64,000 nucleotides of DNA, taken from Neolewinella agarilytica. Lineage in GTDB: Bacteria > Bacteroidota > Bacteroidia > Chitinophagales > Saprospiraceae. Each line of letters opens with the position of its first letter. The stretch's first letter is position 1. The position numbers and the translations under genes were made by a program. Below the pieces are notes generated by a model, which saw only the letters and a list, made by a program, of their open reading frames with translations, was not told the origin of the DNA and made no database searches. The stretch lies in the NCBI RefSeq assembly GCF_900110645.1, contig NZ_FOFB01000008.1:1-64000 (forward strand), read 5' to 3'. Positions 2,897 through 20,066 of the stretch are shown in pieces.

Positions 2897-5230
2897 CTAA
2901 CGATTAGAACCTTCCTTCTCTTTAGCCCGACGATCGCGCTGCATGGGGTTTTCACCGCCGCCACGGCTACGGCTCTTGTACAGGTCAAAACGACTTACTT
3001 CCGTTTGGGAAGGGTAGTAGTTGTTGCTACGGTCCGTGTCGGCTGTTTCCAGGAAAGGATCGAGGTTGATACTTTTTACTTCCTTGGTGAAGGGGAATAC
3101 CTTACTCACCTTCTTGTAGTCCTTTCTCCAGATTTCAGCGGGGATGCGCTGTACTTCCGTCGTACCATCGGCAAAGGTAAACTCAAGAATGATGGGCATC
3201 ACCAATCCACCCTTATTTTCAAAGGTAAGTTCGTAGTAATACTTGTTAGCGGCCAGCACGGCGCGCTCCGCGTCGTTCAGACCTTTGAGGTACTGCTCGT
3301 ACTCTTCTTTATCCAATACGGTGCTGGACAGTGGATCGTATTCCGTGTAGAAGTCCCGTAGCGTACGGTCCTGCTCATCGTAGGTTTGGGCGATCTCTTC
3401 CCGGTTGCGGATCGTGCTGATGTTTTCCTCCCGGGCTTTCATCTGCTGCTTCGTCATTTCGTTTTCCACCATCGGGTTGCGGGTGTTAACCCGGAATGGC
3501 TCAACGCTGCTCAGGGCAATGTCGGTATGATCAGTGGTAAAGAACCAGCCGCGCCAGAACCAGTCGAGATCAATGCCCGAGGCATCTTCCATCGTCCGGA
3601 ACAAATCAGCGGGGGCGGGGTGCTTGAACTTCCAGCGGTTAGCGTACTTCTTAAAGGCGTAGTCAAACTGCTCACGGCCCATGATCGTTTCCCGCAGGAT
3701 GTTCAGGCCAGTAGCGGGCTTACCGTAGGCGTTGTTACCAAATTGCCAGATAGACTCGGAGTTGGTCATAATGGGCGAGATGAACTTCTTGTCACCTTTC
3801 ATGTAGTCGACAATCTTATGGGCGGGGCCACGGCGGCTGGGGTAGTCCCGTTCCCACTGCTGTTCGGTCAGGTACTGCAGGAAGGTGTTCAGGCCTTCGT
3901 CCATCCAGGTCCACTGACGCTCATCGGAGTTAACGATCATCGGGAAGTAGTTGTGGCCTACTTCGTGGATGATTACCCCGATCATACCGTACTTCGTTCG
4001 TTCGCTGTAGGTGCCGTCTTCTTCGACGCGGCCGAAGTTGAAGCAGATCATGGGGTACTCCATACCGATGTTAGCGGCGTTGATGGACCATGCCACGGGG
4101 TAGGGGTAATCGAAAGTGTAGTGACTGTACCACTTCAGAGTGTGCGCAACGGCCTTCGTACTGAAGCGCTCCCAGAGTGGATTACCTTCTTTGGGGTACA
4201 TAGACATCGCCATGACGGTGCTGCCGTCAGACTGCTTTACGGCCATTGCATCCCAGATGAACTTCCTGGAGCTGGAGAAAGCGAAGTCCCGTACGTTCTC
4301 GGCGTTGAAGTGCCAGGTCTTCTCTTTGGCAGACTTCGTCTTTTCGCGCTCTACGGCTTCCGCCTGGGTGGCGATGATGACGGGCTGGACGAATTCTTTA
4401 GCGGCCTCGTCCAGGCGCTTCCGCTGTTCACGCGTCAGCACGTCGTTCGGGTTCTGCAGGGTTCCGGTGGAGGCTACGAGGTGATCAGCCGGTACGGTGA
4501 TCTTCACGTCGTAGTCGCCAAAGGTGAGGGCAAACTCACCACTGCCCAGAAACTGCTTATTCTGCCAGCCTTCGTTGTCGATGTAAACCGCCATCCGGGG
4601 AAAGAACTGGGCGATGGTGTAGAGGTAGTTATCGTCCTCTTCGAAGTACTCAGAGCCGGAGCGGCCACCGCCGTCTTTCATCCGGTCGTTGATGTTGTAC
4701 CACCACTTTAGTTGCAATTCAGTGCTGGCGCCCGGCATCAGTGGTTCGGCCAGGTCTACCCGCATCATGGTTTTCTCGATGGTGTAGTTGGCGGCTTTAC
4801 CGCTACCGTCTTTTACGTAGTCGATCTTGAAGCCGCCATCAAAGGTGGGCTCCAGGCGGGAAAGGCTGCGCAGGGTCATCCGTTCATTGACGTTGCTGGT
4901 ACCAATCTTATAGGTATCGCTGTCGAGGGCACGAACGTTCTGGTCCAGTTGAATCCAGAGGTAGTCCAGCGCATCCGGAGAGTTGTTATGGTAGGTAATC
5001 TTTGAAGTACCGTAGATCTTCTGCTCGGCGTCGTCCAGACGAATTTCCATTTCGTAATCAGCCTGCTGCTGCCAGTATTCGTGGCCGGGTGCGCCGGCAG
5101 CATTACGGTATACGTTGGGGGTGGGAAGCTCGGTGTAGAGCTGGCGGAAAGGATTCTTATTGACGTTCTCCGTCTGGGCAAACAGACCAGCAGAGAGAAC
5201 CATCAACAAGGCAAACAAAGTAATTCTCAT
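2897..5230 (-). CDS. secreted M1-family metallopeptidase (aminopeptidase N-like)
   Basis: A 777-residue zinc peptidase with a signal peptide at residues 1-19 (MRITLFALLMVLSAGLFAQ). The gluzincin motif HEVGH at 422-426, followed 18 residues later by Glu445 (WMDEG), supplies the zinc ligands and the catalytic Glu. The exopeptidase motif near NIGMEYP departs from the usual GAMEN, as happens in Bacteroidota M1 members. The N-terminal third is the M1 beta-sandwich. It is probably periplasmic or surface-exposed and releases N-terminal residues from peptides. It stands alone; the gene upstream on this strand is thrC, beyond a terminator. Confidence 0.9.
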   Translation of the reverse strand: MRITLFALLMVLSAGLFAQTENVNKNPFRQLYTELPTPNVYRNAAGAPGHEYWQQQADYEMEIRLDDAEQKIYGTSKITYHNNSPDALDYLWIQLDQNVRALDSDTYKIGTSNVNERMTLRSLSRLEPTFDGGFKIDYVKDGSGKAANYTIEKTMMRVDLAEPLMPGASTELQLKWWYNINDRMKDGGGRSGSEYFEEDDNYLYTIAQFFPRMAVYIDNEGWQNKQFLGSGEFALTFGDYDVKITVPADHLVASTGTLQNPNDVLTREQRKRLDEAAKEFVQPVIIATQAEAVEREKTKSAKEKTWHFNAENVRDFAFSSSRKFIWDAMAVKQSDGSTVMAMSMYPKEGNPLWERFSTKAVAHTLKWYSHYTFDYPYPVAWSINAANIGMEYPMICFNFGRVEEDGTYSERTKYGMIGVIIHEVGHNYFPMIVNSDERQWTWMDEGLNTFLQYLTEQQWERDYPSRRGPAHKIVDYMKGDKKFISPIMTNSESIWQFGNNAYGKPATGLNILRETIMGREQFDYAFKKYANRWKFKHPAPADLFRTMEDASGIDLDWFWRGWFFTTDHTDIALSSVEPFRVNTRNPMVENEMTKQQMKAREENISTIRNREEIAQTYDEQDRTLRDFYTEYDPLSSTVLDKEEYEQYLKGLNDAERAVLAANKYYYELTFENKGGLVMPIILEFTFADGTTEVQRIPAEIWRKDYKKVSKVFPFTKEVKSINLDPFLETADTDRSNNYYPSQTEVSRFDLYKSRSRGGGENPMQRDRRAKEKEGSNR

Positions 5231-5325: not shown

Positions 5326-5432
5326 GGGCGCTACACGCAGGTGCAAGGTTGGTTTGTACCGCCGGCTTCAGCCGGCGGTGGGCAGACTAAACTCGGCCCT
5401 ACAGCTCCCCCCTGCACCTGCGTGTAGCGCCC
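5326..5432. repeat. inverted pair of the 20-bp interspersed repeat, with internal hairpin
   Basis: GGGCGCTACACGCAGGTGCA (5326-5345) and its exact reverse complement (5413-5432) frame a second perfect hairpin, ACCGCCGGC-TTCA-GCCGGCGGT (5358-5379). The 20-mer is a member of the TGCACCTGCG(N3-4)GCGCCC family that is scattered through the window. The structure lies between the M1 peptidase start and the parS-like sites and resembles a composite REP-type unit. No coding potential was recognised. Confidence 0.85.
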
Positions 5433-5435
5433 CAA

Positions 5436-5451
5436 TGTTCCACGTGGAACA
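5436..5451. other. putative parS centromere site 1
   Basis: TGTTCCACGTGGAACA is a perfect 16-bp palindrome fitting the parS core TGTTnCACGTGnAACA bound by ParB in chromosome partitioning. A second perfect copy lies 46 bp away (start to start). ParB/ParA genes are not in the window, so binding is inferred from sequence and pairing. Confidence 0.7.
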
Positions 5452-5471
5452 AAGGGAGCAGTGCCAAAAGA

Positions 5472-5507
5472 AAGAGGGTGATGTTCCACGTGGAACATCA
5501 CCCTCTT
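5472..5507 (-). terminator. terminator of the thr operon, with parS in the stem
   Basis: A 36-bp perfect palindrome (arms beginning AAGAGGGTGATG, centre CCACGTGG) lies 21 bp past the thrC stop. On the minus strand it is followed by TTTCTTTT, the pattern of an intrinsic terminator. Its centre is a full parS-like site, so one sequence could act as RNA terminator and as DNA-binding site. Confidence 0.75.
5482..5497. other. putative parS centromere site 2
   Basis: The same TGTTCCACGTGGAACA palindrome, here forming the tip of the larger 36-bp perfect palindrome at 5472-5507. Having two sites in 62 bp makes chance very unlikely and is typical of parS clusters near replication origins. Confidence 0.7.
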
Positions 5508-5528: not shown

Positions 5529-6863
5529 CTAACCAAAGGTTTTCCGCAGCCAATCCTTCACCGGCTCGTAGGCAGTGCTCATTTGTTTGGCTACCTTTTG
5601 CTTGTGTTCCAGCTCCTTCAGGCGAGTGGGAACCTCAATAGGATGGCCGAGGATACGCTCAACGTCAGGCTTGAATTTACTGGGGTGAGCTGTTTCCAGA
5701 ATAACCCCACGGGTGTTGGGATTTTCCTTCTGCCACTCATTGAGCGCCAAATAACCAACCGCTCCGTGAGGATCAATAACGTAGCCAAAGCGTTCTTCTA
5801 CTTCCCGTACGGCCTGTTCCGTGCTGGCGTCATCGTAGGCGTAGCCAGAGATCAGTTCCAGCATGGCAGCATGGGTAGCGGGGGAGGAGGCGTCTTTTCC
5901 GTTGACGTGACCGTAGAGATTGAGCATGCGGGCAAAGTTGCTCGGGGCTCCTACATCCATCGCATTGGAAAGCGTAGCTACCGAAGGACGGGGACTGTAG
6001 ACACCACTACTCAGGAACTCCGGTACTACGTCGTTACGATTCGTAGCCGCAATGAAATGACTAACGGGAAGCCCCATTCGCTGCGCCAGCAATCCCGCCG
6101 TGAGGTTGCCAAAGTTGCCACTGGGAATACAGAAAGCAACGGGATCGCCCGCAGCGCCCAGTTGTTTATAGGCTTCGAAGTAGTAGAAGGACTGAGGAAT
6201 CAGGCGGGAGATATTGATGCTATTGGCGGAACTCAGGCGAATCTCGCTACGCAGTTGCTCATCCAGGAAGGCCTGCTTCACGATGGCCTGGCAATCATCA
6301 AAGGTCCCGTCTACCTCCAGGGCGTGGATATTATGCCCCAGGGTGGTTAGTTGTTTTTCCTGCAAGAGACTCACCTTCCCCTTGGGGTAAAGGATCACCA
6401 CCTGAATGCCCGGGGTCTTATAAAAGCCAGCCGCTACGGCACCACCGGTATCTCCGGAGGTAGCCACCAGAATGACTAATTCTTTATCGTTCCCTTTATT
6501 GAAATGCCCCATCAGGCGAGACATGAAGCGGGCACCGAAGTCTTTAAAAGCCAGGGAAGGGCCGTGAAAAAGCTCCAGCACGTAGCGCTTATCGTCCAGC
6601 TTAACTACGGGAGCGGGGAAGTTAATGGCGTCGTAGACCAAAGCTTTCAGCTCTTCGTCGGGCACATCATCTTGCAGAAGATGGCGGCTTACCTGAAAGC
6701 CGATCTCCGCAAAAGACATATAGGGTAGCTCCTTGAAGAAAGCTGCGGGCAGCGGCTCCAGGCGTTCGGGCATGAAGAGGCCATTGTCTGCCGGTAAGCC
6801 CCGGAAGATCGCTTCGGGTAAATCAGCCTTTAGCTCGGGGTTGTTAGTACTGTAAAACTGCAT
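5529..6863 (-). CDS. thrC: threonine synthase
   Basis: A PLP enzyme of 444 residues that converts O-phosphohomoserine to threonine, the last step of the threonine branch. The N-terminus (MQFYSTNNPELKADLPEAI) is typical of the short bacterial thrC clade. Lys107 in SLAFKDFGARF is the PLP Schiff-base lysine; the phosphate-binding loop ATSGDTGGAVAAG follows. It is the third gene of a thrA-thrB-thrC operon read from 10292 downward, 24 bp after thrB. A strong hairpin at 5472-5507 ends the operon. Confidence 0.95.
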   Translation of the reverse strand: MQFYSTNNPELKADLPEAIFRGLPADNGLFMPERLEPLPAAFFKELPYMSFAEIGFQVSRHLLQDDVPDEELKALVYDAINFPAPVVKLDDKRYVLELFHGPSLAFKDFGARFMSRLMGHFNKGNDKELVILVATSGDTGGAVAAGFYKTPGIQVVILYPKGKVSLLQEKQLTTLGHNIHALEVDGTFDDCQAIVKQAFLDEQLRSEIRLSSANSINISRLIPQSFYYFEAYKQLGAAGDPVAFCIPSGNFGNLTAGLLAQRMGLPVSHFIAATNRNDVVPEFLSSGVYSPRPSVATLSNAMDVGAPSNFARMLNLYGHVNGKDASSPATHAAMLELISGYAYDDASTEQAVREVEERFGYVIDPHGAVGYLALNEWQKENPNTRGVILETAHPSKFKPDVERILGHPIEVPTRLKELEHKQKVAKQMSTAYEPVKDWLRKTFG

Positions 6864-6887: not shown

Positions 6888-7823
6888 TTAAAGAATAACG
6901 ACGCCGTCCTGATTGATGGGAGAAACGTACAACTGGCTATTGACGCCATGAAGCGCAAAGGCCTCCTGCATACCCTGGCCCGCTGCCTGCGCCAGGTAGC
7001 CAGAATCACAAAGGGCAAAGACGGATGGGCCAGCACCACTGATGCTACAGCCCAGTGCCCCGCACTCGAGGGCTGCTTTCTTTACGTCGTCAAAGCCTTT
7101 GATCAGCTGCTTGCGCTGTGGCTCAACGATGTGGTCTTCCAGTGAGCGCCCGAGTAAGGGGAGATCATTGGTGTATAGTGCAGTGATAAAACTGGCGAGG
7201 CTTCCCGTCTGCCGGATAGCTTTCTTAAGGCTGATCGTATCACTCAGCACCGCCCGGGCATCCCGGGTGAGGATTTCAATGTCAGGGTGCACCACCGCAA
7301 CCTGCAGGTTCTGGGGTACGGGCAGGTGATGAATATCCAGCGATTCGTTAGAGCGAATCAGGGTAATACCACCTACGAGAGAAGGGGCTACATTGTCTGC
7401 ATGAAAGCTACCGTCCGCTACTTCTTCACCCAGGACGGAGAAGTAGAGCAAAGACTCCCGGCTCAGGGGTGCGCCCAGCAATTCATTGACGGCCACCACT
7501 GCGCCGGCTGCGCTGGCGGCGCTGGACCCTAAGCCACTGCCGAAGGGCATTTTCTTGTGCACCTCCAACTCAATACCCAGGTCTTCTTTTCCCAGATGCT
7601 TCAGCAAGGTGTAAGCCGCTACGCCAGCGGTATTCTCTAATACTTCGGTGGGCAAAATCTTATCGCCCGTGCCGGTGATGGCAACGATCTTAAGCCCTGT
7701 AATATCCGGGTTGAGCCGAGCGACGATCTCGTCTCCGGGCCGGTTAATGGCAAAGCCCAGGATGTCAAAACCAACGGCAACGTTGGCTACCGTAGCCGGT
7801 GCAAATACGCGTACTTCTTTCAT
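6888..7823 (-). CDS. thrB: homoserine kinase
   Basis: A GHMP kinase of 311 residues that phosphorylates homoserine with ATP to give O-phosphohomoserine. The ATP-binding loop MPFGSGLGSSAASAAGA at about 92-108 and the C-terminal GCSISGAGPSVFAL motif are those of ThrB. It starts 6 bp after the thrA stop and is followed by thrC, so the three steps are probably co-translated from one transcript. Confidence 0.95.
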   Translation of the reverse strand: MKEVRVFAPATVANVAVGFDILGFAINRPGDEIVARLNPDITGLKIVAITGTGDKILPTEVLENTAGVAAYTLLKHLGKEDLGIELEVHKKMPFGSGLGSSAASAAGAVVAVNELLGAPLSRESLLYFSVLGEEVADGSFHADNVAPSLVGGITLIRSNESLDIHHLPVPQNLQVAVVHPDIEILTRDARAVLSDTISLKKAIRQTGSLASFITALYTNDLPLLGRSLEDHIVEPQRKQLIKGFDDVKKAALECGALGCSISGAGPSVFALCDSGYLAQAAGQGMQEAFALHGVNSQLYVSPINQDGVVIL

Positions 7824-7829
7824 TGGGCC

Positions 7830-10292
7830 TTAGCTTAAGAATTTACCGATCTTGATGATTTCTGCGAAGACACCTGCTGCCGTTACTTCGGCTCCGGCAC
7901 CGGGGCCACGAACAACCAGTGGGCGTTCGCGGTACCGGTCCGTCGTGAAGACGATCATGTTATCGCTGCCACTCAGGTTGTAGAATGGACTGTCCGTATC
8001 AACGGCCTGCATACCAACGCTGGCCTTCTCGCCTTCCAGAGTAGCAATCATCCGTAGTACTTTGCCTTCGGCTTTAGCGTCAGCCTGGAGCTTAGCGAAG
8101 TAATCCTGATTGTTTTCCAGCACCTGGAAGAAGTCGTCTACGGACTCCGCCTCCATCGCTCCTTCGGGGAGGAAGCTCTTCAGCTCGATGTCTTTGGCTT
8201 CCAGCGCAACGCCGGTCTCGCGGGCAAGGATGAGAATCTTACGACCAACGTCTTTACCGGAAAGATCAACCCGGGGGTCCGGCTCCGTGAATCCTTTCTC
8301 TTTGGCTTCGCGGACGATCTCGTCGTAAGGTCGGCTACCATCGAAGTTGTTGAAGATGTAGCTCAGGGAGCCACTCAGTACTCCCTCAATTTTCCGGATG
8401 CGGTCTCCGCTGTCCAGCAGATCCCGCAGAGTAGAGATGACGGGCAGGCCGGCACCAACGTTGGTTTCGTAATGGAACTGTACACCGCGCTTAGCGGCGA
8501 TGGCCTTTAGGCGCTGGTACTGCTGGTAGCTGCTGGAGGTGGCTACTTTATTAGGAGTAGAGATACTGATGCTCTCATCCAGAATGCCTTCGTAGTAGGT
8601 CGCGATTTTATCGTTCGCGGTGTTATCTACGAAGATGCTGTTGCTGAGATTGAGGTCCCGCATCCGGCCAACGAAGACGGCCAGGTCTGCTTTGGTCTCA
8701 CTTGCCTTCAGGCGTTTCTTCCAGTCTGTATCCAGCTCCAGGCCTTCCACATCGAAGATCATCTTTTTGGAGTTGGCCATACCAACAACCTTCACTTCCA
8801 TCCCCAGCTTTTCGCGGAGGTATTCGTTTTGCTCTCGGATCTGGCGTAGCAGCGTACTGCCGATTAAGCCGACACCCACGATGAAGAGGTGGAGCGTTTT
8901 ATAGTCCGACAGGAAGAAGGCCTCGTGCAAAGCGTTGAGCGCTTTGTTTTCGTCTTCGCGGGGAATGACGACGGAAACGTTCAGCTCGCTGGAGCCCTGA
9001 GCAATGGCCACGGCGTTGATACCGTTCTTGCCCAGCGCCTGGAAGAGGCGGCCGGAGATGCCCGGCTGGTAGCGCATGTTCTCACCGATGATGGCAACAA
9101 CGCTGAGTTCACGTTCAACTTTGACGGCGTTCACGACGCCTCGTTCGATTTCGTACTCGAAGGCTTTCTGTACGGCCTTCTTCGCTTTATCCGCATCGTC
9201 CGGCTTAACGGCGAAGCTGATCGCGTGTTCGCTGGAGCCCTGGGTGATGAGGATGATGTTGACCCCTTCGGTTGCCAGGCCACTGAAGAGCCGGGCGGAA
9301 ATGCCCGGCACGCCGAACAGTCCGCTACCCGAAAGCGTCAGCAGTGCAATGTTGTTGATGGAGCTGATGCCCCTGACGGCTACACCATCCCGACTACTCT
9401 CCTCACTAACTTTAGTGCCCGGAAAAGACGGATCAAAAGTATTCTTAATATATAACGGAATGCGTTTGTGTAGCGCCGGCATCAGCGTTGGCGGATAAAT
9501 CACCTTTGCCCCGAAGTGGGACATCTCCATGGCTTCCGCATAAGTCATCATCGGAATGGTGAAGGCTTTCTTTACCCGGCGCGGATCAGCGGTGAGTACG
9601 CCGCTTACGTCCGTCCAGATTTCAATAGCGTCCGCCTGCAGGCCCGCTGCGATGAGAGAAGCGGTGTAATCTGACCCACCACGGCCGAGCGTGGTTGTCA
9701 ATCCGCCTTTAGCCGAAGCCACAAAGCCCGTAACCACCTGAACCTTAGGGTGTTCGGTGTAATAATTACGTATTACCTGGTAGGTTTTGTCGAAATCAAC
9801 CTTTGCGCTGCTGAAGTTTTTGTCCGTCCGGATAATTTTACGGGCGTCGAGGTACTCAGCGGGGATCCCTGCGTGGCGCAGGGTCTGGGCGATGATGTAA
9901 GCCGAGGAGCGTTCGCCAAAACTGAGGACGTAGTCCATCGTCCGTGGGCTGGCTTCCCGAACGAGAAAAATACCGTAGAGCAGGTTCTTGAGTACTTCGT
10001 GGGACTTCTTCATCTTGTCTGCCGTTTCCTTGCGGAGGTCTCCGGCAGGCAGCAGTTCTTTGATGGCGTCCTGATGCCGTTTGGCAAAAGCCTGGAAGGC
10101 TTCGCCGTAGCGATCGTCTCCGGTAGCGGCAATGGAGCTCATTTCAATTAAGCTGTCGGTCACTCCGCCAAAGGCGGAGAAGACTACGGTGAAGTGATCA
10201 CCGGAAGCGTAATAATCTTTGAGGATATCAACGATGCCGCGAATGCGTTCCGGCTTAGCGACGGATGAACCGCCGAACTTGAGGACTTTCAT
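7830..10292 (-). CDS. thrA: bifunctional aspartate kinase / homoserine dehydrogenase I
   Basis: A fused enzyme of 820 residues, the same length as enterobacterial ThrA. The N-terminal kinase (KFGGSSVAKPERI at 4-16) phosphorylates aspartate. Two ACT domains around residues 315-465 are the usual site of threonine feedback. The C-terminal part, with the NAD(P) fold (FIVGVGLIGSTLLRQ) and a typical dehydrogenase core, reduces aspartate semialdehyde to homoserine. It is the first gene of thrABC. A leader hairpin lies about 20 bp upstream of the ATG, but no leader peptide with Thr/Ile codons was recognised. Confidence 0.96.
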   Translation of the reverse strand: MKVLKFGGSSVAKPERIRGIVDILKDYYASGDHFTVVFSAFGGVTDSLIEMSSIAATGDDRYGEAFQAFAKRHQDAIKELLPAGDLRKETADKMKKSHEVLKNLLYGIFLVREASPRTMDYVLSFGERSSAYIIAQTLRHAGIPAEYLDARKIIRTDKNFSSAKVDFDKTYQVIRNYYTEHPKVQVVTGFVASAKGGLTTTLGRGGSDYTASLIAAGLQADAIEIWTDVSGVLTADPRRVKKAFTIPMMTYAEAMEMSHFGAKVIYPPTLMPALHKRIPLYIKNTFDPSFPGTKVSEESSRDGVAVRGISSINNIALLTLSGSGLFGVPGISARLFSGLATEGVNIILITQGSSEHAISFAVKPDDADKAKKAVQKAFEYEIERGVVNAVKVERELSVVAIIGENMRYQPGISGRLFQALGKNGINAVAIAQGSSELNVSVVIPREDENKALNALHEAFFLSDYKTLHLFIVGVGLIGSTLLRQIREQNEYLREKLGMEVKVVGMANSKKMIFDVEGLELDTDWKKRLKASETKADLAVFVGRMRDLNLSNSIFVDNTANDKIATYYEGILDESISISTPNKVATSSSYQQYQRLKAIAAKRGVQFHYETNVGAGLPVISTLRDLLDSGDRIRKIEGVLSGSLSYIFNNFDGSRPYDEIVREAKEKGFTEPDPRVDLSGKDVGRKILILARETGVALEAKDIELKSFLPEGAMEAESVDDFFQVLENNQDYFAKLQADAKAEGKVLRMIATLEGEKASVGMQAVDTDSPFYNLSGSDNMIVFTTDRYRERPLVVRGPGAGAEVTAAGVFAEIIKIGKFLS

Positions 10293-10425: not shown

Positions 10426-11517
10426 TTAACGATTAACAATCTTAAGGAGAGGCCGGAATTCGTATAAAGTAGGGACACGTGTCGTACCGGGCCTGCTTAT
10501 TTCAACAATGCGGTTTTGCTCCAGTTCTTTCAGTATCCTGATTAATGTTCTCTTTCCAACTCCGGGTAACTGATAAAAGGTAGTGTTACTGAAAATTGGA
10601 TTACTAAAGATGAAATCCTGCGTACTTCCTGCGTGCACAGAATTAGTTGCTTTAGCAATAACTGACTTCATTTCCTCATAAAGATCTAGTGTACTCTTTG
10701 CTTGCCCAATCGTTTTTTGTGCTTGCTCTACAACACCGTTTAGAAAAAAAGTTATCCAGCCATTCCAGTCTTCACTTGTGCTGATTGCTTGTAACCGATG
10801 ATAATATTCAGACCGGTTCGCCTCCAGGTAATCACTCATGTAGAAAAAAGGCTGGTGAATCACTTCCTTATGATACAGGAATAGCGGAATCAGAATCCTG
10901 CCCAACCTACCATTTCCATCAAGAAAAGGGTGTATGACTTCAAACTGAGCATGCATAATCGCCAATTGAATCATGACATCTTCACCTTCTGCATGCAAAT
11001 ATTTTTCCCATTCATAAAGTGCTTCCAGCATAGCTGGTGGAGATGGAGGTACGTGTGATGCTGTTTCAAGCGTACTTCCTGGCGGGCCAATCCAATTCTG
11101 TATTCTACGAAAGTTGCCACGGTCACTATGTTGCCCCCTTACACCATTCATCAATACACTATGAATCGTTCGAATAACATTGAGTGTTAAAGGCAATTTT
11201 TCCATCTCGTCTTTACCGGCCAACAGTGCCGTACGATAGTTTAAAACCTCTTCAAGGTCATCTTTGTCCGTACCTAGAGGCGTACGTTTTCCGTCAAAAC
11301 TAGCGATATCCTCAAAGGTCGCTCTGGTACCTTCAATCTTGGAGGACAAGACTGCCTCCTTATTTCTTAGCGGCGATATTAGTAATTCAGGACTAACGAC
11401 TGCTCTTAATATACCGTCATACCGTGCTACAGATCGATTAGCCTTCCCCGCCAGAGGAATTAGCTGACGAAAATTCAGGTCCTTAATTGGCAACCGATGT
11501 GGAATAAAAGGCTTCAC
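10426..11517 (-). CDS. class II Fic protein with C-terminal winged helix
   Basis: A protein of about 363 residues from the GTG at 11517 (V-K-P-F-I-P-H-R-L-P matches the usual N-terminus of this family; a TTG ten codons earlier would place the start inside an operator palindrome). The Fic motif HPFLDGNGRLGR is intact. An N-terminal SSKIEG segment fits the inhibitory motif [S/T]xxxE[G/N] of class II Fic proteins, which blocks the ATP site. The last 60 residues form a winged helix (GVGKRTLIRILKELEQNRIVEI), suggesting DNA binding and autoregulation through the palindromes upstream. It probably AMPylates a protein target; the target is unknown. Confidence 0.88.
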   Translation of the reverse strand: MKPFIPHRLPIKDLNFRQLIPLAGKANRSVARYDGILRAVVSPELLISPLRNKEAVLSSKIEGTRATFEDIASFDGKRTPLGTDKDDLEEVLNYRTALLAGKDEMEKLPLTLNVIRTIHSVLMNGVRGQHSDRGNFRRIQNWIGPPGSTLETASHVPPSPPAMLEALYEWEKYLHAEGEDVMIQLAIMHAQFEVIHPFLDGNGRLGRILIPLFLYHKEVIHQPFFYMSDYLEANRSEYYHRLQAISTSEDWNGWITFFLNGVVEQAQKTIGQAKSTLDLYEEMKSVIAKATNSVHAGSTQDFIFSNPIFSNTTFYQLPGVGKRTLIRILKELEQNRIVEISRPGTTRVPTLYEFRPLLKIVNR

Positions 11518-11536
11518 TGGTCGAAGATAAGAAAAA

Positions 11537-11641
11537 ATTAGTGCCAAAAATTAAAAAAATGGCACTAATAGCCATTAATAATCCCCATTAGTGACACGTG
11601 TGTCACTAATGGGGATTATTAGTGACACGTGTGTCACTAAT
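11537..11641. promoter_or_regulatory. palindromic operator array upstream of the fic gene
   Basis: Three inverted repeats share TTAGTG half-sites. IR1 is ATTAGTGCCA (11537-11546) with TGGCACTAAT (11560-11569). IR2 has two 18-bp arms (11580-11597 and 11600-11617) around GT, core ATTAGTGACAC. IR3 repeats the core with 11-bp arms (11618-11628, 11631-11641). IR2 and IR3 both contain GACACGTGTGTC. A related GACACGTGTC lies near the 3' end of fic (10474-10483). The winged helix of the Fic protein is the obvious candidate to bind here (inference). Confidence 0.7.
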
Positions 11642-17853: not shown

Positions 17854-18987
17854 TTAAACCACATTTTCCACCGTTTTATCCACAGCTTTCAACAGGGTGC
17901 CGGGGCGGAACAAATAGTTGAGGTAAACGATGGCTCCAACCAGGGCAATTGCCCCAAACTGATGGGCAACTCCAAGGCCTACCGGCACCTGTCCCTGACT
18001 ACTCATTACCGTTGCTATTCCAAGAATTGCCTGAGTTATCAACAGGATTATCAACAGGGTATTCGCATTCTGCGTATATGCCCCGATTTTCGCCTTTCGC
18101 GTCTGTAATAGATAGGCTATCACCATGATTATCAGTGTATAAGCGGTCATCCGGTGCAAGAACTGGATTAAGGCTGGTTGGAAGAGGCTTTGCTCGTAAT
18201 ACACCAAGTTATCCACAGTCCATGCCGAAGCATCGTGTAAAATAGGCGGCACAAAGTGTCCATTCATATCGGGCCAGGTCGGGTAGGGCAAAGCTGCTTT
18301 CGCTCCACTCATGATTCCGCCCAGTATGAGCTGAAGAAAAAGGACGATATTCAGGGGCCAAAGCCACTTATCCACGGCAGAATGTGGAAAAGCTCTTGTT
18401 TTTGGTTGGATTACTTTTAGGATTGTCCACAAAAGGTAGGAAAAGAGGGAAATCCCCAGGCAGAGGTGAATCGTGAGCTTGTAAGCATTCACCCAGGGAC
18501 GATCAATAAGCCCGCTGGCGACCATGATCCACCCAAAGCTGGCCGCCAGGGCCGCCAGCAGTACCGTAATGCCCAAACGACGCATCAGCGGGCCATCCAG
18601 CCACCCTTTACGCCAAAAGATGGCAAAGCCTACGGCGAAGACCAATCCCATCATACGCGCCCACTGCCGATGGAACCATTCCCAGAAGTAGATAAACTTG
18701 AAATCCTCCATCGTGATGTCCGCAAAGATCTTCTCATACTGAGGGCTGGCCTGGTACTTCTCAAACTCAACCTGCCAATCAGCCGCGTTCAGTGGCGGCA
18801 TGGCACCACTCAGAGGTTCCCACTCCGTAATCGAAAGCCCCGACTCCGTCAGCCGGGTAATGCCACCAATTACGATTTGCCCCACCACCATGATGAGCCC
18901 AACGATGAGCCAGATCTTAACTGCGCGGTGATAGCCTCCGCCGATCAAATTCGGTTGCCCGTCCGTTTTTTTTACACTCGCCTCCAT
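17854..18987 (-). CDS. ctaA: heme A synthase (COX15/CtaA)
   Basis: A 377-residue inner-membrane protein with about eight TM segments that oxidises heme O to heme A for cytochrome c oxidase. The N-terminal IGGITRLTESGLSITEW and WEWFHRQWAR motifs are those of COX15-type synthases. Conserved heme-ligand His residues are visible in WFHRQ, TIHLCLG, FLHRMT and VAHQFG. The rest of the oxidase operon is not nearby. Two perfect TTATCCACA sequences occur inside the gene (17876-17884, 18209-18217), part of a DnaA-box-rich zone that continues upstream. Confidence 0.94.
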   Translation of the reverse strand: MEASVKKTDGQPNLIGGGYHRAVKIWLIVGLIMVVGQIVIGGITRLTESGLSITEWEPLSGAMPPLNAADWQVEFEKYQASPQYEKIFADITMEDFKFIYFWEWFHRQWARMMGLVFAVGFAIFWRKGWLDGPLMRRLGITVLLAALAASFGWIMVASGLIDRPWVNAYKLTIHLCLGISLFSYLLWTILKVIQPKTRAFPHSAVDKWLWPLNIVLFLQLILGGIMSGAKAALPYPTWPDMNGHFVPPILHDASAWTVDNLVYYEQSLFQPALIQFLHRMTAYTLIIMVIAYLLQTRKAKIGAYTQNANTLLIILLITQAILGIATVMSSQGQVPVGLGVAHQFGAIALVGAIVYLNYLFRPGTLLKAVDKTVENVV

Positions 18988-19622
18988 CTCTTAATAGTTA
19001 TTAATACTTTTTCAAAATTTAAATCCTTTTATCGTTATTAGGACTGTGGAAACGGGGAGAACTTCTTGCCTTTTCATTAGGTCTTGCCGTTCTGCCCATT
19101 ATTCCACGTCTTTTCCACGGTGGCCTAACAGTGAAAAGCCTTTATTGATCAGGCTTTGGCAAAATTATCCACAAGAGCGACTATCATTGTCAACAGAATA
19201 ACTTTTTCGCTTCTGAGTGGGGAAATATGACGGCAAACTGTCAGTGGACTGTTAGGCGACAAGGGCAAAAAATGTGGAAATGTGGATAAAGTGGCCGTTT
19301 TGGTGACCATGGGCAAAAGCACTGTTGATAAGTGGGGAGTACTCCACGCTTCTCCACTTTTAGAGCGTGGAAAACGCGATTAGCTAAACAGCTGGTAAAC
19401 AATGCCTTTACGTATACTTAATCTTGGGGCTGTGGAGAACGGTTTTTCGGGTTGGAGCTTCCGTCGGGTAATTAGTACAGCGTATACCGAGGAGCGAAAC
19501 CTCTGAAAACACCTTCGCCATTGCCAGCTATTAAAACCTGCCGCGTTGTGTTATGGATCAAAATAGAATCGCCGCTGTATTATGTTAAGTAGGTTGATTT
19601 GTGCAAAAGTCTTTCATGAGCA
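18988..19622. other. candidate chromosomal replication origin (oriC)
   Basis: A 635-bp stretch without a gene. It begins with an AT-rich block (18990-19041, unwinding-element-like). It then carries many DnaA-box-like sites: perfect TTATCCACA at 19165-19173 (+) and 19281-19289 (-), TTATCAACA at 19323-19331 (-), TTGTCAACA at 19187-19195 (+), and weaker boxes near 19046, 19098, 19273 and 19428. More boxes lie in the flanking ctaA gene. Bacterial origins combine exactly these parts. The nearby parS-like pair and the change in gene orientation at 23.5 kb agree. dnaA itself is not in the window, which is not unusual in Bacteroidota. Confidence 0.65.
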
Positions 19623-20066
19623 CTAGCGGATCCCTTCAATCCTCATGGTCTCTCCTTCCAGCTGCAGCCGGGTGAAATCGCGTAGGTTATCGGTATAGAG
19701 TACTTCTGCCCCGGCTTTAAGGGCGGCTTCATAGTGGAGGGCATCATAAATGACGGAACTCATAAGACCCAACTCACTGCAACGGCTTATGGCTGCCTCA
19801 TAATCGGCTTTAGTCAATTCCACAATAGTCAAAAGATTACCAATACCATTTATGATAGTTTCTGCAGCAGCGGCTGGAGAAAGATGTATGCCAAACTTTG
19901 TGGGCTTGGTAATATTACGGTACAACTCAGCATAAGCATGTGTGGTAGTGGATACTGCAGTACCACTGGAAAGAGCCTTTTGCAAAGTCAACTTAGCTTT
20001 GTCGTGCAGCTCATGTTTAGTGATGAGAGCTGCAAGTAAAACGGAAGTGTCAAAGTAACTAATCAT
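19623..20066 (-). CDS. PIN-domain toxin (VapC-like RNase)
   Basis: A 147-residue PIN domain. Acidic metal-binding residues are visible at Asp6 (SYFDTSVL), Glu47 (AYAELYRNI), Asp108 (SVIYDALHYEA) and Asp126 (YTDNLRDF). VapC toxins cleave RNA with Mg2+ and are held by an overlapping antitoxin. Here the ATG overlaps the stop of the AbrB-type gene by 8 bp (ATGATTAG), the normal arrangement. It lies directly beside the candidate origin. Confidence 0.9.
   Translation of the reverse strand: MISYFDTSVLLAALITKHELHDKAKLTLQKALSSGTAVSTTTHAYAELYRNITKPTKFGIHLSPAAAAETIINGIGNLLTIVELTKADYEAAISRCSELGLMSSVIYDALHYEAALKAGAEVLYTDNLRDFTRLQLEGETMRIEGIR

Follow-up and report, generated by a model that had tools for sequence, protein, structure and literature searches.

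We identify two copies of a 16-bp palindrome, lying between the threonine operon and an M1-family peptidase gene of Neolewinella agarilytica, as chromosomal parS sites of this bacterium. We put the probability of this reading, in which ParB binding is predicted from the sequence, at about 0.93. The pair very probably represents the only chromosome 'centromere' sites of the genome. Two of its features go beyond what the first-pass annotation of this DNA had recorded: site 2 is predicted to form the tip of a terminator hairpin, and the distance between the sites is one of a set of spacings that recur in helical phase among relatives. All positions refer to the window, that is, the whole stretch of 64,000 nucleotides that was analysed (Table 1).

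Table 1. Features at and around the parS pair in the window.
Feature	Position	Strand	Basis or remark
M1-family peptidase gene, conserved, flanking the parS pair opposite thrC	2897..5230	-	Pfam Peptidase_M1; synteny
Imperfect inverted repeat, 107 bp, beside parS site 1	5326..5432	.	45 partial matches across own genome
parS site 1, TGTTCCACGTGGAACA	5436..5451	.	exact match, one of two in the genome
Predicted intrinsic terminator of thrABC, perfect 36-bp palindrome centred on parS site 2	5472..5507	-	18-nt arms, then TCTTTT
parS site 2, TGTTCCACGTGGAACA	5482..5497	.	exact match, one of two in the genome
thrC, threonine synthase	5529..6863	-	Pfam Thr_synth_N, PALP; adjoins the site in most relatives
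thrB, homoserine kinase	6888..7823	-	Pfam GHMP kinase domains; operon position
thrA, aspartokinase-homoserine dehydrogenase	7830..10292	-	Pfam AA_kinase, ACT, Homoserine_dh
CtaA/COX15 gene, conserved beside the candidate origin	17854..18987	-	Pfam COX15-CtaA 1.2e-87; synteny
Candidate replication origin, intergenic DnaA-box-like cluster (635 bp)	18988..19622	.	7 boxes; same cluster by CtaA/COX15 in relatives

A pattern search of the window found both copies of TGTTCCACGTGGAACA to be exact, with 46 bp from start to start and 30 bp separating them. Each is an exact instance of TGTTNCACGTGNAACA, reportedly given by Livny et al. 2007 as the consensus for chromosomal parS (Bacillus subtilis, Caulobacter and Pseudomonas aeruginosa). 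The draft genome as a whole (74 contigs, 6,220,808 bp) contains no further exact TGTTNCACGTGNAACA site, and the remaining matches resembling it carry two mismatches each. The sites are thus few and clustered rather than scattered: two in 6.22 Mb, 46 bp apart. Because only about 0.02 exact TGTTNCACGTGNAACA sites are expected by chance in this genome, two of them inside 62 bp are not a chance occurrence. The first-pass annotation had described a 16-mer present twice exactly, 46 bp apart, and fitting the ParB-binding palindrome; we confirm this on every point. A genome-wide count of the 16-mer, proposed there as a check against many copies spread over the chromosome, returned two copies, both at this locus.

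Exact TGTTNCACGTGNAACA sites are widespread among relatives. We found them in 153 of 199 genomes of the family and in 293 of 392 genomes of the phylum, with one to seven sites per genome in both sets; the reversed pattern, used as a control, matched very few genomes (a handful in the family). Many genomes without exact parS carry one-mismatch copies instead: a one-mismatch search recovered a parS-like site in 15 of 20 genomes drawn from those lacking either an exact site or an exact pair. One of the 15 is G193, another member of the genus, which has TGTTCCACGTGGAACG and GGTTCCACGTGGAACA, again 46 bp apart. The position of the sites is also conserved. In N. agarilytica, the pair occupies a 298-bp gap between the M1-peptidase gene and thrC, the last gene of the thrABC operon, all of these genes being on the minus strand. 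Every locus of the genus that we read has its sites in this position, with M1 on one side and thrC on the other (the contig of one genome, G767, stops short of M1). In other genera of the family, the sites mostly adjoin thrC, thrB or M1. The thrC link was absent from the loci of other families examined, and linkage to thrC is therefore a trait of the family and no rule for the phylum.

These comparisons bear on two other readings of the palindromes. They could be operators through which either the thr operon or the M1 gene is regulated, or plain terminator stems that happen to resemble parS, which would suit their intergenic location and the placement of site 2 within a terminator hairpin. We consider this very unlikely, given that the 16-bp core matches the universal consensus for parS and is conserved while its flanks vary. 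The core stays near-exact even in genomes that have a gene other than thrC beside it, and it occurs in low, clustered numbers near a conserved DnaA-box cluster. Alternatively, the pair could belong to a plasmid or prophage that has integrated, and not be a chromosomal centromere. Neither parA nor parB adjoins the site, and no support for such an origin was found. It is contradicted by synteny, as the housekeeping block of thrABC, M1, mevalonate decarboxylase and CtaA is common across the family, and by the presence of a single ParB above the cut-off in the genome, so that we regard it as extremely improbable.

The chromosomal parS reading also requires a cognate protein, and N. agarilytica encodes one canonical chromosomal ParB. 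It is the single ParB above the family cut-off in the genome (2.2e-52, contig C20, 309 aa), contains ParB_N and HTH_ParB domains, and has chromosomal ParB, Spo0J and Noc as its closest solved relatives. The GERR box is present. In an alignment to Caulobacter ParB, the residues matching R173 and G201, taken to be parS-specificity residues, are kept; T179 is replaced by Y and A184 by N. The gene adjoins neither the parS pair nor parA. In a complete chromosome of the family (G125), parA does adjoin parB; in the parB neighbourhoods of the genus (own-genome locus L008, G000:C20:107931-111464) and of another relative, G127, parA was not found. ParB-parS systems are well studied in Proteobacteria, Firmicutes and Actinobacteria, and little in Bacteroidota. 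In ParABS systems, ParB bound to parS closes into a CTP clamp, slides off, and marks the origin region for segregation. By analogy with this established biology, the single ParB of N. agarilytica would bind both palindromes and would be loaded there as a CTP-dependent clamp. It would then spread over the DNA beside the pair, and the spread protein would mark this origin-proximal region for segregation.

A probable origin lies close by. The first-pass annotation had placed a candidate origin about 14 kb from the pair, and this is borne out by seven DnaA-box-like sites at 19045-19439, which make up the densest 500-bp bins of the window. The arrangement of COX15 and DnaA-box cluster recurs in seven further genomes of the genus (every one examined), as well as in G125 and G127. 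The near-complete 7.31-Mb chromosome of G127 allows this region to be set against GC skew, which changes sign at about 360-365 kb and a second time near 4.0-4.4 Mb. The parS pair (346.3 kb) and the DnaA-box cluster (378.3 kb) are both within about 20 kb of the first switch and far from dnaA (6.49 Mb). In G193 and G125, GC skew was too weak for an origin to be located. For N. agarilytica itself, whose genome is a draft, the assignment of the pair to the origin region is made through the conserved DnaA-box cluster 14 kb away and the GC skew of G127. In the complete chromosomes of G125 and G127, dnaA lies megabases from the parS/DnaA-box region; therefore, assemblies rotated to dnaA do not begin at the origin in this family. 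A PIN-domain gene (19623-20066) abuts the candidate origin in N. agarilytica; among the relatives' stretches checked, several of which stop short of the expected position, it was seen in G721 only. Another gene, encoding a Fic-domain protein (10426-11547), is located past the thr operon on the way to the candidate origin.

Taken with the motif, the low and clustered copy number, the synteny and the single ParB, the nearby DnaA-box cluster supports the earlier proposal that these are chromosomal parS sites. The pair itself is of a known type. It resembles the chromosomal parS of B. subtilis, Caulobacter and P. aeruginosa in its 16-bp palindrome, few copies, clustering near the origin and one chromosomal ParB. 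In contrast to those systems, there are just two sites here, 46 bp apart, one of them in a terminator hairpin, and parB is apart from both the sites and parA. The origin also differs in not being located at dnaA, as in some gut bacteria, where a Hi-C study found parS clusters at the origin and dnaA to be no safe origin marker (PMC10197239). Our findings locate the centromere in a large family in which dnaA misses the origin and, via the DnaA-box cluster, indicate where that origin probably lies.

Site 2 is highly likely to double as the predicted terminator of thrABC. The palindrome centred on it is perfect over its 36 bp, starts about 21 bp past the thrC stop codon, and is the best terminator in the scanned region. 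Folding of the hairpin as RNA gives -29.1 to -33.4 kcal/mol, with z scores of -5.6 to -8.4 relative to shuffled sequences. The locus has what defines an intrinsic (Rho-independent) terminator, namely, a stable, GC-rich hairpin directly past the stop codon of the gene, then a U-rich tract. What sets it apart from ordinary intrinsic terminators is that the invariant parS half-sites make up the upper 8 bp of each arm, leaving only the lower stem to vary. As RNA, site 2 would form the upper half of the hairpin that ends the thrABC transcript, and the terminator would stop thr transcription at the centromere.

The stem flanking parS is conserved by complementarity and not by sequence. In ten members of the genus, the thrC-proximal parS carries such a stem, with different sequences (gagggtga, ggcccgga, agccccaa, aggggtga, ccgggat and others) and with complementarity kept. 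Among these ten rows, which were picked for showing the hairpin (about half of the genus is without it), all eight stem pairs are altered on both sides and 95% of cells are paired. No shuffle or slid register approached the observed number of paired cells or the covariation score. Furthermore, parS-terminator fusions recur across the family and in other bacteria. Among unselected parS sites of the family, a helix extension of at least 7 bp was present at 27 of 160, compared with 0.3% under a null in which left and right flanks were re-paired. Among bacteria at large, the extension was present at 12 of 200 parS sites (0.1% under the null), including loci of Streptomyces, Chitinophaga and Phascolarctobacterium.

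The meaning of this coincidence is a separate question. It could be an exaptation with no selective meaning beyond termination, formed by chance and then kept, because the parS palindrome is a ready-made hairpin tip at which a terminator can readily arise. We find this somewhat probable, as fusions with different stems recur in unrelated bacteria well above the null and about half of the genus does without one. On the other hand, the stem is kept by compensatory change where it is present, which indicates that the hairpin itself is under selection; note that this says nothing about whether its linkage to ParB matters. The terminator may shield ParB loading, ParB may aid termination, or the palindrome may be merely a convenient hairpin tip. 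The fusion prompts one to ask how centromeres keep transcription away from ParB loading.

The second feature is the spacing of neighbouring parS. Within the family, start-to-start distances between neighbouring exact sites fall at 26-27, 36-40, 46-50 and 56-59 bp, and the 46 bp of the N. agarilytica pair belongs to this set. The clusters centre at about 26, 37, 47 and 57 bp, corresponding to about 2.5, 3.5, 4.5 and 5.4 helical turns. The fourth cluster was predicted before the range of 55-85 bp was searched; above about 60 bp, phasing was not seen, and the further peaks predicted near 67 and 77 bp did not stand out clearly. For 76 family pairs tested against a smoothed null, P was at the floor of 1/4001 (4000 draws). 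Related genomes are not independent and kinship was corrected by genus only: when each of 30 genera contributed a single pair, R was 0.56 at 10.5 bp (Rayleigh test, P of about 7e-5). An independent sample of all bacteria gave R = 0.70 (P = 0.001) for Bacteroidota, where n was a small 14, and no phase for other phyla (n = 75, R = 0.11, P = 0.4).

We therefore consider it likely, from these distances, that neighbouring parS are under a real phasing constraint. The 10-bp periodicity could instead reflect common ancestry and tandem duplication of short units with no constraint, and some close relatives are indeed alike in both spacing and inter-site sequence (for example, G127 and G587, or G410 and G263). 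However, inter-site sequences are mostly unrelated, and spacings of 27, 36-37, 46-49 and 57 bp, all of the same phase, occur within one genus. The signal also persists with one pair per genus and in the second sample, and we judge ancestry and duplication to be an unlikely explanation. A phasing constraint suggests that the rotation of one ParB dimer relative to its neighbour is fixed, with the two roughly on opposite faces of the DNA, either avoiding a clash or touching. We know of no such rule of half-turn cooperation for chromosomal ParB. With the spacing rule, it becomes simple to test whether ParB dimers at neighbouring parS are in contact or exclude each other.

The sopC centromere of the F plasmid, made of 43-bp repeats with palindromic sites, is alike in having tandem palindromic ParB sites with regular spacing of a similar size. 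It differs in ParB class and motif and in being an array, on a plasmid, of repeats that are identical; in the sites described here, the DNA in between is unrepeated and the spacing varies between species in steps of about 10 bp. We found no description of parS inside terminators, or of helically phased parS, in the open-access literature, which our search covered in part; the parS-terminator fusion and the phasing in Bacteroidota appear undescribed. Our combined model, which we advance tentatively and at slightly less than even odds, is that Bacteroidota parS are held at half-integer turns that would fix the rotation of ParB dimers, with one site placed in the terminator of the upstream operon, where transcription would stop at the centromere.

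Other arrangements of parS were also observed. In five genomes (G313, G558, G574, G568 and G149), two parS are 1.89-1.94 kb apart, as if bracketing one conserved gene. Several parS pairs were seen in other taxa, for example four in one Bacilli MAG contig (L181) and two, 5 kb apart, in G254 (contig C6). In G731, the sequence adjoining three parS copies repeats in tandem with a period of 193 bp. The 107-bp inverted repeat beside site 1 in N. agarilytica is a dispersed palindromic element, which we do not think is part of parS.
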